From the IMG/VR virus record IMGVR_UViG_3300037245_002409, positions 1-22,668 of that record: a stretch of 22,668 bases of DNA, one strand, 5' to 3'. Both the position numbers and the translations under genes were made by a program. Below are positions 2,486 to 20,440 of the stretch, piece by piece. Below the pieces are notes generated by a model. It made no database searches. It was not told the origin of the DNA and saw only the letters and a list, made by a program, of their open reading frames with translations. Origin of the DNA: a virus. Within the stretch, counting starts at the first letter, position 1. Every line of letters starts with the position of its first letter.

Positions 2486-2561
2486 TGGTAGGGGTGGAAG
2501 GATTCAAACCTTCGACATCACGCTTATCGAGCGCGCGCTCTAGCCACTGAGCTACACCCCT
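2486..2561 (-). tRNA. tRNA-Ile (anticodon GAT), CCA encoded, unusual C33
   Basis: A full cloverleaf reads on the minus strand. The acceptor AGGGGTG pairs with CACCCCT. The D arm is GCTC/GAGC with loop AGTGGCTA. The anticodon stem is CGCGC/GCGTG (one G-T pair) with loop TCGATAA. The T arm is GAAGG/CCTTC with loop TTTGAAT. A73 is followed by encoded CCA. The loop places GAT at 34-36, giving isoleucine. Position 33, almost always U, is C here (the loop starts TC where CT is usual). It is transcribed from the promoter at 2712-2740 behind two other structured elements, so 5' processing by RNase P would be needed. Confidence 0.9.
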
Positions 2562-3294: not shown

Positions 3295-3319
3295 CCTATA
3301 TAGTGAGTTTGAAAAAAAA
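3295..3319 (-). repeat. Left copy of a 25-bp inverted repeat with CACTATATAGG core
   Basis: Read on the minus strand it is an A/T-rich lead followed by CTCACTATATAGG. The copy at 3525-3549 reads outward in the opposite direction with 23 of 25 bases identical. The CTCACTATA..GG word resembles the core of T7-type phage RNA polymerase promoters. No such polymerase gene is in this window, so the promoter reading is only a hypothesis. Confidence 0.55.
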
Positions 3320-3524: not shown

Positions 3525-3549
3525 TTTTTTTTTAAATTCACTATATAGG
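3525..3549 (+). repeat. Right copy of the 25-bp inverted repeat
   Basis: Plus strand: a T-run, then AAATTCACTATATAGG. It is the mate of 3295-3319 in opposite orientation, separated by 205 bases, and both point outward. It could direct rightward transcription toward 3749 if a phage RNA polymerase exists elsewhere in the genome. About 190 bases separate it from the first rightward gene, with only the sigma-70 promoter in between. Confidence 0.55.
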
Positions 3550-5777: not shown

Positions 5778-6209
5778 ATGAAAATTTGGCTGCTCAAATT
5801 TACTACTCTGATCTTGATAATTTTAATCTGCGCTTTTTGTACCAGATCCGAGGCTGCAAGCGTCACCACCGCATCCGGTGTTAGCCGTACAAGTGGTGCT
5901 CTTATCGAATTGGGTGCTACCTATGACCTCGGCTCTTATATGGCCACCACCGCATCGGTAGGTATCTTTAACCACAGCCCCTACGTCGATGCTGGGCTTA
6001 CCCTGACCTATAAACGCCTCACAATCGGTTGTTCTCTGGCCTATCTCTACCACGTCCCGGTCGAGCTGACCATGCACGGACAATTTAAGCCGAACGTCAG
6101 TTTTCGCTTGACAAATAACATTAGCCTGAGATATGTTCATTTCTCTAACGCTTCACGTAAACACCCCAACTATGGCCGTGATTTTCTCGGCCTGGAATGG
6201 AGCTGGTAA
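5778..6209 (+). CDS. Lipid A 3-O-deacylase, PagL-like outer-membrane enzyme
   Basis: 143 residues. A signal peptide (MKIWLLK, hydrophobic 8-21, cut after SEA at 26) precedes alternating hydrophobic strands of a small beta-barrel, with a C-terminal aromatic residue (Trp143) as outer-membrane insertion signal. The segment LRYVHFSNASRKHPNYG (117-133) matches the PagL active-site signature (R..H.SNA, then PN.G), giving His121 and Ser123 as catalytic candidates; the acidic third residue may be Asp135. PagL removes the 3-O acyl chain from lipid A in the outer leaflet. In a phage early block this suggests remodelling of the surface of the infected cell, for example against superinfection. The family call is firm, the role inferred. 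Confidence 0.85.
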   Translation: MKIWLLKFTTLILIILICAFCTRSEAASVTTASGVSRTSGALIELGATYDLGSYMATTASVGIFNHSPYVDAGLTLTYKRLTIGCSLAYLYHVPVELTMHGQFKPNVSFRLTNNISLRYVHFSNASRKHPNYGRDFLGLEWSW

Positions 6210-8621: not shown

Positions 8622-9047
8622 TCACACCTTATGCCCTTTTTCCAGCAATTGGAAGAAGGGCATGGCTTTAAACGCGCCGACCGTTGAATAAAACCTACAG
8701 TTCATTCGCCACTCGCTCTTGGTCCAAGTCTCAACCAACATCGTCTGATCATAACTGAATAGAAACACCTCGTCCTCTACTCTAATCATCATCCAACAGT
8801 TGCCGCTTACTTTCCCCCTTCTCAATAACCACTGTTTTTGAACACCAGTCCAATGATGTATTCGAACTTTGGTGGTTTTGCGCACGGGGAATTTCTTCAG
8901 CCACTTCAGCTCGATCCAGCCCTGGTGAGATGGCACTCCATAGTTCACGTCCGGGACACCGCAAGCAAGGCCATTCTCTATCCGCTCTGCATCCCAATAG
9001 CACCGCATCTTATCTCTAAGCCATTGCCAGAAGCCTGATTCATTCAT
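8622..9047 (-). CDS. PD-(D/E)xK nuclease (Holliday-junction or VRR-NUC-like)
   Basis: 141 residues. The signature reads E24...GVPDV (Asp33)...GWIELKW (Glu46, Lys48), followed by a basic region RKTTKVRIHH and a helix carrying the conserved-looking GVQKQWLLRRGK. This is the fold of phage resolvase-like and VRR-NUC nucleases, which cut branched DNA using Mg2+. In a replication module it would resolve recombination or packaging intermediates. It is the last gene of the leftward block. The last codons form a 14-bp stem in the DNA (8631-8663). Fold call firm; exact substrate unknown. Confidence 0.75.
   Translation of the reverse strand: MNESGFWQWLRDKMRCYWDAERIENGLACGVPDVNYGVPSHQGWIELKWLKKFPVRKTTKVRIHHWTGVQKQWLLRRGKVSGNCWMMIRVEDEVFLFSYDQTMLVETWTKSEWRMNCRFYSTVGAFKAMPFFQLLEKGHKV
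8631..8663. terminator. 14-bp stem at the convergent gene ends
   Basis: ATGCCCTTTTTCCA (8631-8644), the 5-base loop GCAAT, then TGGAAGAAGGGCAT (8650-8663), with one mismatch. It lies inside the last codons of the nuclease gene and 20 bases after the rightward block ends. No T-run follows on either strand, so it is a candidate bidirectional pause or processing hairpin rather than a standard terminator. Confidence 0.45.
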
Positions 9048-9235
9048 TTAATTACCATGAGGAGCCTATGATTTTCCTCCCTAAGCTCTTCTACCTCATA
9101 GGCCAGAGCAAGGATAAGGCCATCACCACAACAGTCACGCCATTTTTCACCATAACGCAAAGCACTCAGCCTGTCATTTTCATCAAATAACACTGTGTAT
9201 TTACCGTCACCAACAGTTACTTTAAGATCACTCAT
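9044..9235 (-). CDS. Small protein with C-terminal coiled coil (63 aa)
   Basis: Start set at the ATG at 9235 because GGAGG lies 5 bases upstream; an in-frame GTG further 5' would place that site inside the gene. The sequence is MSDLKVTVGDGKYTVLFDENDRL, a small beta domain, then YEVEELREENHRLL, a short coiled coil. Its start overlaps the stop of the rearranged gene upstream. Unknown function. Confidence 0.6.
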   Translation of the reverse strand: MSDLKVTVGDGKYTVLFDENDRLSALRYGEKWRDCCGDGLILALAYEVEELREENHRLLMVIK

Positions 9236-9483
9236 CACTTCCTCCACCACTTAAGAATTTCCCCTAAAGCCTCCATGACAACCCATACAATCGTAGCGCC
9301 GCCGAAGGTGACGGTGTGCATATTGGCTTTGTTCCTGTTCCTGGCGCTAGTGCCGAAAGCGCCGGTCATTACTATGTTTATCAGCGCTATACTCGGCGGC
9401 GCTACGATTGTATGGGTTGTCATGGAGGCTTTAGGGGATATGCACACCGTCACCTTAATGTCAACCTTTGTCTGCTTTTTCAT
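9235..9483 (-). CDS. Small membrane-protein gene rearranged by an internal inverted duplication
   Basis: As it stands, the frame encodes 82 residues: MKKQTKVDIKVTVCI, a polar middle, then GGATIVWVVMEALGEILKWWRK. The middle is the reverse complement of the gene itself. Arms of 46 bp (9260-9305 and 9393-9438) and 19 bp (9305-9323 and 9438-9456) are exact inverted copies around a unique 69-base core. Reading that core in the other orientation and removing the duplicates gives an uninterrupted 61-residue frame with two membrane helices (a helix with ILALFLFLALV, then VITMFISAIL and GGATIVWVV). AAGGAT lies about 8 bases before the ATG. The observed product is probably not functional unless the block can flip. 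Confidence 0.7.
   Translation of the reverse strand: MKKQTKVDIKVTVCISPKASMTTHTIVAPPSIALINIVMTGAFGTSARNRNKANMHTVTFGGATIVWVVMEALGEILKWWRK
9260..9456. repeat. Compound inverted duplication (template-switch signature)
   Basis: Order on the plus strand: arm A 9260-9305, arm B 9305-9323, unique core 9324-9392, A' 9393-9438, B' 9438-9456. A/A' and B/B' are perfect inverted repeats of 46 and 19 bp. The order A-B-core-A'-B', not A-B-core-B'-A', is what a polymerase leaves when it jumps to the complementary strand and back. The net gain is about 63 bases, a multiple of three, so the frame stays open. Confidence 0.85.
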
Positions 9484-9485
9484 GT

Positions 9486-9698
9486 CTATCTATCCTTCAT
9501 CTTATCATACAGTCTTTTAATCAGAGTATACCTCTCCCGCCATTGCTTGACTTCTGAGATAAGACCTGTTCTCTCTTTGATTTGATCGAACCCTTCCCAT
9601 CGATGCTTCTCCAACAGCCGCTCATAGGCCGCATCCATCCGCTCGATCTTCCGCGCTAATCGCCGGTTCTCAGTCCGTAGCCGTTTGAGTTCACCCAT
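9486..9698 (-). CDS. Coiled-coil protein (70 aa)
   Basis: MGELKRLRTENRRLARKIERM starts a basic leucine-heptad coiled coil that covers most of the protein. It overlaps the upstream gene by 8 bases, and GAGG lies 8 bases before the ATG. It probably forms dimers; a DNA- or partner-binding accessory role is possible. No family recognised. Confidence 0.6.
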   Translation of the reverse strand: MGELKRLRTENRRLARKIERMDAAYERLLEKHRWEGFDQIKERTGLISEVKQWRERYTLIKRLYDKMKDR

Positions 9699-9966
9699 TT
9701 AGCGCCTCGGCCTTCTCAAGTTTGTCAGCATACCAATCAAGCGTTTTGTGTGTACGTTCGTCTGACTTCTTCAGCGCCTCCAGCTCTACCTTGAGTTGCT
9801 CATTCTCTATATTTAGTCGGTTGAATTCGTCAGTAAGCTCTTTCCATTCCCATCGATCACCTTCTTGGTGACCACAAGTCGAACAAGACTTTGGGAAAGA
9901 TGCTCCTGTGTGTCCAATCGTTCTAAACGCCTCAGACTGGCACCATCTACATTTCTCAACTATCAT
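9691..9966 (-). CDS. Zinc knuckle plus coiled-coil protein (91 aa)
   Basis: Start set at the ATG at 9966, which overlaps the polymerase stop (ATGA) and has AGGTGG just upstream. CRWC (6-9) and CSTC (28-31) form a zinc ribbon, followed by a long coiled coil (NIENEQLKVELEALKK). Many phage replication modules carry such ribbon-coil proteins of unknown role. Confidence 0.65.
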   Translation of the reverse strand: MIVEKCRWCQSEAFRTIGHTGASFPKSCSTCGHQEGDRWEWKELTDEFNRLNIENEQLKVELEALKKSDERTHKTLDWYADKLEKAEALNG

Positions 9967-11924
9967 TCCACCTCTCCCCATGATGGGCCTGACTCGGTAT
10001 CACAGGCCAGTGGTATTTTCAGCTTAACACAATTCTCCATTATGTGCAGCATTTCTTTCGCTGCTTCATCGGCTTCTTTTGTCTTTGGCTGTGAGAAATC
10101 TAATTCGTCATGAACTGTCAAATGGATCTTCAGCACATCAAATACACCTGAATCCCAAACATCTTTCATCGCTTTCTTCATAACATCGGCAGCAGAGCCC
10201 TGGATGAGTTTATTCATAGCCGTCCACGTCTCGGCTCTACGTACCGTTCCCCACAATTCAACTGCCCATTCTTTATCTAGCTTTGGTGCATTGGCGTGTG
10301 CCGTATCCCAATCAGTCGATTCCCAAAAAGGAAACCGGGCTCGTCTATTCATCAGTGTTCTAATATAGCCTCGATTACTGGCTACCCTTGATGTTGCTTT
10401 TTGTAGCGACTGGACAAAAGGCACTCGGGCATGATAGGTTTTAAATAGCTCTTCGGCCTCTTCGACGGATACCCCCAAGTCTTCGGCTAATTTCTCTACA
10501 CCCATAACATAAGCCAAACCAAAATTGATAGTCTTTGCCGGGTCGCGGTCAATACCACACATCCTACCGACCAAGGCATGAAAGTCTGTGGTCGGATCAT
10601 TTACATATTCCGACCGAGCCGCTTCAGCTTCTGGGCCTGTTCCATACTGGGTGATCAGCCGGAACTCGACTTGACTGTAATCATCTTTTACCCATAGACA
10701 ATCTTCTTCCGGCAAAAAACAACTACGAATAGCTTTACCTAAGCGCATCATAACACCATCGACACAGATTAGGGTCTTATCGCGCATCGGGATATTTTGC
10801 AGGTTAGGTAGGCTACTGCTGAAGCGGCCTGAAATTGTACCATTCTCATCGGTTCTTAATGGATGAAACATGCCATACAATCGACCGTTGACATTTTGAC
10901 CAATTATATAACCCTTAATAAATGTGTTGAGGATCGTCGTATATTTACGGAGCCCCAATATCAATTGGATTTCCGGGTTTGGTAAGTTTAGTTTTTCTAA
11001 CCACTTCTTCTGAAAAGAAGGTTGGCCATTGGGGTGTGACTTTGTTGGCTTTGTTCTTAGGTAGGGTATATGCAGCTTATCAAATATTCTACTTAAATGA
11101 CCAGCGGAATTTATATTGCACTGAAAACCGCACAGCACGTTAAGCTCTTTCTGCCAGCGGGTGATTTCCTTTTGCAGCCCTGCGCCGATCCGTTCGGCTT
11201 TCGGTACATCAACCCTAACCCCGTTCAAACGCATGGCTAGCAGCATCGGCAGCAGGGAGCACTCCATTTCGAAAAGGTCTTCAAGGTTCTGCTCTCGCAG
11301 CTCCTTGCGCTGTGATTCCAGAATCCTTAGTGGCAAGTCAACATCACCTTCAGCATATGGCCCGACCAGACCGACCGGAGCCTCCCAGATATGGTTGCCG
11401 GGGTTTTGCTTGCCGTAGGCCATAGTAATCCAATCATACATAGCATTACTGACTTTGCCCTCACCCAAGCGCTCTTTGGCGATATTGTCCAGGCTATACG
11501 ACAGTTTGTGCTCATCGAGCAGCGGCTCGGCATATTGAACGTCGTAGAGCTTCCCGGCCACCGGCACATCGGCCACTGCCAAGAACTCCAAGTCGTATAT
11601 TAAATGCGCTCCAACCTTCGGCTGAGATGACCGACCTAACTCTTCCTTCGCCCAGCGCAGCACTGTATCCCGATCCATATTTCCCCCGAGCTGATGGGCG
11701 ATAGGATAATAGCCCCGGAAGCCATCGTCAGTCCCGATAGCCACCCCGGCAATAAAAGCTCCCCTCCTGGTTCCCGGCCCCTTGGTTTTAAGATCCGGGT
11801 CGCAAGTCTCAAGGTCAACCGATATCATCTTAGCCGATGATAGGTCGGGAAAGGAATCAGGCGGCATCCAATCGGTCTTCACCGGATGGAGCGTACCCTT
11901 ATCGATGAGGTCGAGTTGTTTCAA
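9963..11924 (-). CDS. Family A DNA polymerase with 3'-5' proofreading exonuclease
   Basis: Replicative polymerase, 653 residues from a TTG start at 11924. That start overlaps the stop of the upstream membrane gene, has GGAG 5 bases before it, and gives a natural N-terminus (MKQLDLIDKGTL). A longer ATG frame to 12044 would run through the membrane gene in another frame and adds an odd Trp/His-rich leader. The exonuclease has Asp37/Glu39 (SVDLET), HLIYDLEF and YAEGD. The polymerase has motif A with Asp415 (DDYSQVE), motif B R460-K464-F468-Y472 and motif C VHDE (604-607). Phe468 aligns with E. coli Phe762, the residue that disfavours dideoxynucleotides. There is no 5' nuclease domain, as in T7-type enzymes. 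Confidence 0.97.
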   Translation of the reverse strand: MKQLDLIDKGTLHPVKTDWMPPDSFPDLSSAKMISVDLETCDPDLKTKGPGTRRGAFIAGVAIGTDDGFRGYYPIAHQLGGNMDRDTVLRWAKEELGRSSQPKVGAHLIYDLEFLAVADVPVAGKLYDVQYAEPLLDEHKLSYSLDNIAKERLGEGKVSNAMYDWITMAYGKQNPGNHIWEAPVGLVGPYAEGDVDLPLRILESQRKELREQNLEDLFEMECSLLPMLLAMRLNGVRVDVPKAERIGAGLQKEITRWQKELNVLCGFQCNINSAGHLSRIFDKLHIPYLRTKPTKSHPNGQPSFQKKWLEKLNLPNPEIQLILGLRKYTTILNTFIKGYIIGQNVNGRLYGMFHPLRTDENGTISGRFSSSLPNLQNIPMRDKTLICVDGVMMRLGKAIRSCFLPEEDCLWVKDDYSQVEFRLITQYGTGPEAEAARSEYVNDPTTDFHALVGRMCGIDRDPAKTINFGLAYVMGVEKLAEDLGVSVEEAEELFKTYHARVPFVQSLQKATSRVASNRGYIRTLMNRRARFPFWESTDWDTAHANAPKLDKEWAVELWGTVRRAETWTAMNKLIQGSAADVMKKAMKDVWDSGVFDVLKIHLTVHDELDFSQPKTKEADEAAKEMLHIMENCVKLKIPLACDTESGPSWGEVE

Positions 11925-12064
11925 ACGAACTCCGGGTATACCAGCCAAGCCAGCGTCATTAAGCCAATGATACCAATGACGGTGAAGAAGCCACCAGTGA
12001 AAGCAGCTGCTATGAAAAGTACGAATAATATTGACAAACACCAAACGATTATTTTACTGAACAT
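11921..12064 (-). CDS. Two-helix membrane peptide before the polymerase (47 aa)
   Basis: MFSKIIVWCLSILFVLFIAAAF then GFFTVIGIIGLMTLAWLV: two transmembrane helices. The ATG at 12064 is chosen because GGAG lies 6 bases upstream; the ATG at 12070 directly abuts that site. Its TGA overlaps the TTG start of the polymerase, so polymerase translation is probably coupled to it. The start overlaps the upstream gene by 11 bases. Function unknown. Confidence 0.65.
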   Translation of the reverse strand: MFSKIIVWCLSILFVLFIAAAFTGGFFTVIGIIGLMTLAWLVYPEFV

Positions 12065-16518: not shown

Positions 16519-16794
16519 TTAATACCTCACATAAGTGCTGTGCCTTGCGGCGTGATCTTCTTTACTTAGCAGCTCAAGATTTTCTATAGCATCATTAAGC
16601 GAATTACCATCTTTGTGGTGAATAACTTCACAGGAGAGCAGTGTTCTGTCAAGGTCTACAGCTACCACATATCGAGCATTGTTCACCCATTTTCTATTCG
16701 GGAACAACGGATGACCAGCTACCTTAACTTCATAGCGATTATGGCTTTGATCAAACCGTTTTGTTCCTATAGGAACTGCTTCAAATGGCTTCAT
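16519..16794 (-). CDS. HNH endonuclease (homing-type)
   Basis: 91 residues from the ATG at 16794, which overlaps the helicase stop (ATGA). RYVVAVDLDRTLLSCEVIHHKDGNSLNDAIENLELLS contains the HNH core (HH.DGN...D...NLE). An N-terminal segment (YEVKVAGHPLFPNRKWVNNARYV) is typical of phage HNH homing proteins. These are selfish elements that nick DNA. Its position between two replication genes is normal for such an invader. The longer open frame runs into the helicase gene and was rejected. Confidence 0.8.
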   Translation of the reverse strand: MKPFEAVPIGTKRFDQSHNRYEVKVAGHPLFPNRKWVNNARYVVAVDLDRTLLSCEVIHHKDGNSLNDAIENLELLSKEDHAARHSTYVRY

Positions 16795-18215
16795 AGCTCT
16801 ATTGCGTGTAGGGTTTGTGGCATGATGATATGCAGCTCTTTTCGGGCTCGGGTGATAGCTACATACCAAACTCTCCATTCAGCATCCGGGTTGACATGAA
16901 AGCCCTCAATCGTTCGCTGGGTGGTGTCGGTCAATAAGAGCACATTGTCAGCCTCTCCACCTTTAACGCTATGGATGGTGTTGATGTTTATCCTTGGTTT
17001 TTGTGTAATCTTCTCACCACGGCGGAGCAAGCTAATGTAGAATTCACGCTCTCTAAGCGGTATTTTTTCTAAGGCTATATGCCATATAACTGTAGGCCAC
17101 TTCGTCGTTCCTAGCGGCAGGTAGCTCTCTACCAGCGCTTTTTCAGTGTCAGTCAAGGTGTTACCTTTGCGCCAATACTCCCAAGCGGAGATGGCCTTCA
17201 TATGTTCTTTATTAACTACTGACTTTCCACGAAAGGAATACATATAACCCTGGTCCCGCATGAGATTTGCAAGCTGATTTAGCAAATAGCCGTTCCTGGC
17301 TAATAGTAGCCAAGAGCCGCTACTGAAGTCAATAGAATCCATATTATAATGGTACTCTACTTTTCCTTCGACCTCTGTTGGTTTATACTTTTTATGAATC
17401 CTAGAATGGATTCTTCCAGCGAGTTCCTCCGCGAGTCTGTGAATCGCTTTTGGAACTCGGTGCGACTGATTGAGAACCTTTCTGGTGCCTTTGAGCCCGA
17501 GGAAATGATGAACGTCAGCTCCTGACCAAGTATAGATAGCTTGGTCATCATCTCCTGCGATGTATAGTCTTTCGGCATTAGCAAACATCCTTAATATGAA
17601 TTTCCATTGTAGCGTTGATAGATCTTGGGCTTCATCGATAATCCCAACCTTGATCGGTAACGGCGCACACTCAATTTCCAACAGGTCGGAGAAGTCCTTC
17701 AAGCCCCGTTCTTCTTTGTAGAGGCATAATGCCCTTGTGAACCTCTCATATTCCCACCAGTTGAGGTCGTAATCTCCAAGCAGCGCCCATGCTTTTTTCG
17801 CGCTGATTTGACGGCTTCTAGCAAACCCATCCAGGTAGACATACTGATCTCCCGACTTTCGGTGTAACATGGAAAGAAGGCCACCCTCCTCGAAGTCTCC
17901 GGGAGTTGAGAACTCCAGTCCAAGCATCTCTCCGAGTTCAAGGTAGTGCTCTCTTTGCATAATCTCATCTTTTCTAACTCCACCAGACTGATAGGCAAGA
18001 CTGTGAATCGTTCTGACATAGGGGAAATCCTTTATGTTTAGTAGCAGCCGGTCCAGCACCCGGTCGATAGCCTCTTGAGCAGCTTTACGGGTAAACGACA
18101 CGAAAGCAATCTCTTCCGGCTCCACCTGATTGCCCATCTCTGCTTCGATAATATCCATTAGCGTCGTGGTTTTCCCGGTTCCCGGCGGCCCGAGGATGAT
18201 TACAGGTTCATTCAC
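16791..18215 (-). CDS. UvrD/Rep-like superfamily 1 DNA helicase
   Basis: 474 residues. All key motifs are visible: Walker A GPPGTGKT (9-16), motif Ia FVSFTRKAA, motif II IIDEAQD (about 190), motif III GDDDQAIYTWSGA, motif IV NQSHR, motif V IHSVKGGEADNV and motif VI VAITRAR (about 452). At 474 residues it is shorter than UvrD (about 720), as expected for a phage enzyme with a reduced 2B domain. It unwinds DNA 3' to 5' in the family. It is coupled by an 8-base overlap to the upstream small gene and has no clear ribosome-binding site of its own. It works with the primase-like protein and polymerase encoded on either side. Confidence 0.92.
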   Translation of the reverse strand: MNEPVIILGPPGTGKTTTLMDIIEAEMGNQVEPEEIAFVSFTRKAAQEAIDRVLDRLLLNIKDFPYVRTIHSLAYQSGGVRKDEIMQREHYLELGEMLGLEFSTPGDFEEGGLLSMLHRKSGDQYVYLDGFARSRQISAKKAWALLGDYDLNWWEYERFTRALCLYKEERGLKDFSDLLEIECAPLPIKVGIIDEAQDLSTLQWKFILRMFANAERLYIAGDDDQAIYTWSGADVHHFLGLKGTRKVLNQSHRVPKAIHRLAEELAGRIHSRIHKKYKPTEVEGKVEYHYNMDSIDFSSGSWLLLARNGYLLNQLANLMRDQGYMYSFRGKSVVNKEHMKAISAWEYWRKGNTLTDTEKALVESYLPLGTTKWPTVIWHIALEKIPLREREFYISLLRRGEKITQKPRININTIHSVKGGEADNVLLLTDTTQRTIEGFHVNPDAEWRVWYVAITRARKELHIIMPQTLHAIEL

Positions 18216-20405: not shown

Positions 20406-20440
20406 TGGGCAGATGTAAAGTAATACTTTACATCTGCCCA
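20406..20440 (-). terminator. Perfect 17-bp hairpin between the ssDNA-binding candidate and primase-like genes
   Basis: Arms 20406-20422 and 20424-20440 are exact inverted copies around a single base, with the core GGGCAGATGTAAAGTA. In RNA this makes about 15 pairs and a small loop. No T-run follows on the minus strand, so it may act as an attenuator, an RNase III site or a 3' stabiliser for the upstream message rather than a full stop. It lies 5 bases after the upstream stop codon. Confidence 0.6.

Follow-up and report, generated by a model that had tools for sequence, protein, structure and literature searches.

A backwards copy within a small viral membrane-protein gene and its probable origin by inter-strand template switching

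Short-range template switches in replication are described by four points: the descendant sequence is read as an ordered series of three ancestral fragments, of which the second is reverse-complemented, and the event is local, covering tens to about a hundred bases within one replication fork (PMC7954356; PMC8794818). In the gold-standard set of great-ape events, the copied (2→3) stretch has a median length of 12 and a maximum of 128 (PMC7954356). In E. coli, quasipalindrome-associated mutations perfect or create inverted repeats by a replicative template switch that exploits a pre-existing imperfect palindrome together with the nascent strand (PMC7202029). For inversions that start from staggered breaks, the model predicts that only the derived state has an inverted segment with flanking inverted duplications (PMC7584159). 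Joins of inverted sequence are also made in vitro: among inverted chimeras of less than 10 kb formed in phi29 multiple displacement amplification (MDA), 93.5% have junction complementarity, scored as at least 2 bp (PMC1855051). Here we analyse a small membrane-protein gene that carries its own middle copied backwards, in an IMG/VR record of 22,668 bases, the whole of which is called the window below.

Architecture of the rearranged gene

The window carries genes for a family A polymerase, a UvrD-type helicase, a primase and a terminase, and the rearranged gene lies on the minus strand among small genes downstream of the polymerase (Table 1). The original prediction, made from the letters of the window, described two exact inverted arm pairs, and both were recovered at the predicted coordinates (46 of 46 positions matched for A/A', 19 of 19 for B/B') and in the predicted plus-strand order, A-B-core-A'-B'. 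On each side a single base, 9305 or 9438, is common to both arm pairs, and ungapped extension of the A/A' pair gives 49 nt at 98%. The whole structure covers 197 bp. When the window was shuffled 20 times, no perfect inverted pair within 600 bp reached 17 bp, and a chance origin of the arms is therefore excluded.

Table 1. Features of the rearranged site and its neighbours, in window coordinates
Feature	Position	Strand	Remark
Rearranged gene	9235..9483	-	observed 82-codon frame
Arm A, 46 bp	9260..9305	+	original copy of the minus-strand gene's 3' part
Arm B, 19 bp	9305..9323	+	reverse-complement copy of B'
Core, 69 bp	9324..9392	+	inverted relative to the inferred ancestor
Arm A', 46 bp	9393..9438	+	reverse-complement copy of A
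Arm B', 19 bp	9438..9456	+	original copy of the gene's 5' part
81-codon ORF	9275..9520	+	now holds the intact two-helix stretch, inverted; no ribosome-binding site seen
Upstream neighbour	9486..9698	-	small protein, 70 aa
Downstream neighbour	9044..9250	-	68 aa from GTG; resembles phrog_3052 (unknown function); internal ATG at 9235 shares bases with the stop of the rearranged gene
phrog_2165 protein	8622..9047	-	judged by position and similarity, the VRR-NUC gene found after the polymerase in relatives
Family A DNA polymerase	9963..12044	-

The site can be written as head + revcomp(x-M-y) + y, the pattern that had been proposed for it. An exhaustive search over four cut points reproduced the observed 249 nt exactly from an inferred gene of 186 nt, which upholds the predicted net gain of 63 bases. 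The cut points fall at 27-28, 45-46, 115-116 and 160-161 of the inferred gene, with a 1-bp ambiguity per junction, and the stretch copied in inverted orientation measures 132-134 bp (bases 28-160 of the 186).

Several other features of the window were recorded. A perfect 17-bp hairpin with a 1-nt loop lies at 20406-20440, between the primase gene and a gene resembling Pam3 gp34. A tRNA-Ser with anticodon CGA is found at 2486-2561 (minus strand), and the UvrD-type helicase gene shares its 3' end with an overlapping HNH_3 endonuclease-like ORF (16519-16878, minus strand). Between the two gene arms, where genes are few, CCTATATAGTGAGT (3295-3308, plus strand) and CCTATATAGTGAAT (3536-3549, minus strand) face each other and are reminiscent of T7-type promoter cores. 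Among the scanned proteins, none was recognised as a phage RNA polymerase. Finally, a 143-aa protein (5778-6209, plus strand) with a signal-like stretch at its N terminus matches PagL, a lipid A 3-O-deacylase (Pfam E 4e-8, above the cut-off); neither 50,697 phage records nor the window's closest relative yielded a relative of it. An outer-membrane lipid-modifying enzyme would be unusual in a phage.

The inferred 61-codon gene and its relatives

When the extra arms are collapsed and the core is turned round, the site becomes, as had been predicted, a 61-codon gene encoding two helices, MKKQTKVDIKVTVCILALFLFLALVPKAPVITMFISAILGGATIVWVVMEALGEILKWWRK, which shares its start, stop and frame with the 82-codon form. 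On the minus strand this gene reads L + A + revcomp(core) + B' + R, and its product has two hydrophobic stretches and charged ends. An AAGGA ribosome-binding site precedes the ATG, which stands just past the stop of the upstream gene; the gene's own stop overlaps the ATG of the next gene (TGATG, 9237-9233), with GGAGG just before. The codon score, taken over a small sample, is 0.148 per codon for the whole inferred gene; the restored core reaches 0.207, the polymerase 0.189, and the inverted part, read in the observed frame, 0.025. Small as the samples are, they agree in direction: the codon usage of the inferred gene resembles that of the other phage genes more closely than does that of the inverted part. 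From gene anatomy alone, we infer that the 61-codon form was the ancestor and the 82-codon form the derived state. A holin match of the 61-residue form (E 0.2) was not significant, and this identity was rejected.

No relative of the 61-residue protein was confirmed in viral contigs, phages or species-representative genomes, in searches that left out records very near this genome, and comparison with plasmids gave matches at chance level only (E 7-9). The exact DNA of the arms had no match in viral contigs. The neighbouring small genes, used as search bait, found no relatives; the polymerase and primase led to distant relatives and the terminase to one near relative, IMGVR_UViG_3300032272_000021, whose identity to the window is 67% for the polymerase, 73% for the terminase and 56% for the VRR-NUC protein. 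A further search with an alignment of the two polymerases added none. Neither the 61- nor the 82-residue form is present in the relatives' loci that were retrieved. In the near relative, the slot between the polymerase and VRR-NUC genes holds genes of 85 and 125 aa unrelated to those of the window. The contents of this slot of small genes are entirely different in the window (9044-9981) and in the nearest relative (locus L080, 12874-13518), which marks it as an island of changing small genes.

To place the structure against a base rate, comparable arrangements with both arms of at least 10 bp were sought in other viral contigs (0.77 Mb) and in prokaryotic contigs (1.46 Mb). None was found in the viral set, and the prokaryotic set gave one weak, inexact case: an A-B-core-A'-B' arrangement with arms of 15 and 11 bp in a bacterial MAG contig (L154, 4370-4508), which does not abut exactly and was taken as chance. 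Perfect separated inverted repeats of at least 25 bp numbered 0 in the viral and 14 in the prokaryotic set.

Origin of the rearrangement

We think it probable that the locus records a real inter-strand template switch in viral DNA replication, one that probably damaged the gene. The original prediction had already named template switching as one reading. It gains from the reconstruction, in which three ordered ancestor fragments with the middle one reverse-complemented give the site without a mismatch; it loses by the lack of the ancestral form in any relative. Synthesis, in the sense of the minus strand, would have completed the first ~45 bases of the gene, and the polymerase would then have jumped to the opposite strand ~115 bases ahead, copied 132-134 bases backwards past its point of departure, and returned to resume ~70 bases beyond that point. 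The outcome would be an inverted gene middle with inverted copies of 18-19 and 45-46 bases at its sides, in a frame of 82 codons. We take replication to have been the agent of the rearrangement.

Two properties of the switch points narrow the mechanism. First, their order on the ancestor is 3-1-4-2, which the mirrored direction of replication also gives, and point 2 lies ahead of point 1; the nascent strand therefore cannot have been the template and an inter-strand switch is required, following the logic of PMC7954356. Second, the overlap at each switch point is 1 bp in the inferred ancestor, and so the event was not guided by a quasipalindrome. A quasipalindrome-associated mutation was rejected, as no prior imperfect inverted repeat is present. 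Junctions of 1 bp fit a switch that lacks prior inverted repeats. The copied length of 132-134 bases keeps the event local, within one replication fork, and stands at the top of the range known for short-range switches in great apes; however, it exceeds nearly all published short-range events, and this counts against a template switch.

An artefact would require no such mutation: a chimera made in phi29 MDA or in library preparation would have been taken up by the assembler, and the virus would truly carry the 61-codon gene. This reading is unlikely, though it carries real weight. The structure comes from one uncultured virus record, a contig without reads, and its absence from the other 0.77 Mb of viral contigs means that it is no common feature of these viruses. 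Chimeras of MDA within 10 kb are mostly (85%) inverted (PMC1855051), and those of sonication too flip the stretch between inverted repeats (PMC10908179). However, sonication chimeras arise from prior inverted repeats (PMC10908179), and the inferred ancestor has none at the switch points. An artefact also needs two distinct junctions, both winning in assembly, and by our reasoning the assembler needs reads that carry both. The complementarity of at least 2 bp that characterizes MDA chimeras is not seen at either junction; 1 bp at both is atypical, and ~0.4% of such pairs would be expected to have this appearance if the junctions were independent.

Staggered breaks offer a different route: opposite-strand nicks 46 and 19 bases apart, with the overhangs filled and the fragment rejoined backwards, as in the isochromatid model. 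Breaks with fill-in and a template switch would give the same sequence and be indistinguishable by it. The inverted duplications predicted for the derived state are present at both ends, the uninverted state is found in no relative, and 1-bp junctions are compatible with end joining. Against this, two staggered breaks ~70 bases apart are needed, with rejoining on both sides. To our knowledge such end joining is not a usual route in lytic phages. We hold this route to be quite improbable.

As for the age of the event, the arms show no mismatch at 64 sites, which puts their divergence below ~4.6% (95%), in arms that are partly under coding constraint. The event is thus not old, and the wording of the prediction, 'very recent', goes further than a bound of ~4.6% allows.

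Consequences for the gene

In the observed 82-residue frame, the first helix is lost, and the best 19-residue Kyte-Doolittle mean falls from 2.55 in the inferred form to 1.65. The rearranged product probably lacks most of the original membrane fold and is likely non-functional. The transcript is predicted to fold at -122 kcal/mol, compared with -74 kcal/mol for shuffles (z -9.9), and its new 46-bp stem ends ~15 bases ahead of the ribosome-binding site of the next gene, a position from which it could reduce the expression of both genes. The z of -9.9 would also speak for a hairpin within the gene that is selected, as RNA or as DNA, for a regulatory or structural role. However, any perfect 46-bp inverted repeat folds likewise, the copying event explains the stem, and the site has neither an Rfam match nor conservation; selection for a hairpin is hardly credible.

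The net gain of 63 bases keeps the reading frame, as had been pointed out, but this is no sign of selection. Among random events of the same class, 33% are in frame and 12% stay open. With the in-frame size of the observed event given, the frame remains open in 15 of 47 slides within the gene and in 14% of the events in 11 other genes; overall, 5-11% of events of the observed size stay open. Open frames are thus common enough among random events for frame retention to be rejected as a signal of selection, and the locus is likely a damaged, dispensable small gene.

The alternative that the gene holds an invertible segment, also part of the original prediction, or has become a flip switch, fits poorly. 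Here recombination across the 46-bp arms would flip the middle, and a copying accident would have made an in-frame phage gene switch between a two-helix 82-residue protein and the observed 82-residue form without the helices. The 46 perfect base pairs are suitable for homologous recombination, and the computed flip isomer, MKKQTKVDIKVTVCISPKASMTTHTIVAPPKVTVCILALFLF...KWWRK, is in frame over 82 codons, carries a 21-residue insert and keeps both helices. An in-frame flip, however, is an automatic result of the +63 origin, for which selection is not needed, so that it is not independent evidence. The order A-B-core-A'-B' is not that of a cassette, whose arms mirror each other from outer to outer; A/A' alone could recombine, which leaves unexplained the second arm pair that a template switch accounts for. 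The arrangement is not conserved, and the window and its nearest relative, both of which may be fragments, contain no serine or tyrosine recombinase, with no match to Resolvase or Phage_integrase. We consider both the origin of the segment as an invertible element and a present role of the scar as a flip switch very improbable.

Provided that it is real, the template switch in this virus record is unusually large and legible: its switch points can be read to within one base, and their order allows inter-strand switching only. A single replication error could then lengthen a gene by 63 bases while inverting part of it, keep its frame open and leave behind a 46-bp hairpin. The locus is a legible example of an already well-described type of mutation, and it may reflect an artefact or a mutation private to a single virus.

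Compared with the described systems, the locus differs from MDA chimeras, with which it shares an inverted join and a strand jump inside one molecule: these typically have a single join, an intervening deletion and at least 2 bp of complementarity, whereas two joins, a net gain and 1 bp at each are found here (PMC1855051). Staggered-break inversions share the inverted segment, the inverted duplications at both ends and their restriction to the derived state, but those described are chromosomal inversions of Drosophila, and the present structure measures 197 bp in all (PMC7584159). Quasipalindrome-associated mutations of E. coli resemble it as bacterial replicative switches that perfect or create inverted repeats; they rely on the nascent strand and on an imperfect palindrome that is already there, whereas the overlap here is 1 bp and the switch inter-strand (PMC7202029). 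For four-point template switches, L→1, 2→3 (reverse complement) and 4→R describe the descendant fully, on a local scale and with perfect inverted repeats created, although ~133 bp were copied, slightly more than the great-ape maximum of 128, the order 3-1-4-2 yields two inverted repeats where a single one is commoner, the ancestor is inferred rather than seen in a sister genome, and the source is a virus record, not a great-ape genome (PMC7954356; PMC8794818).
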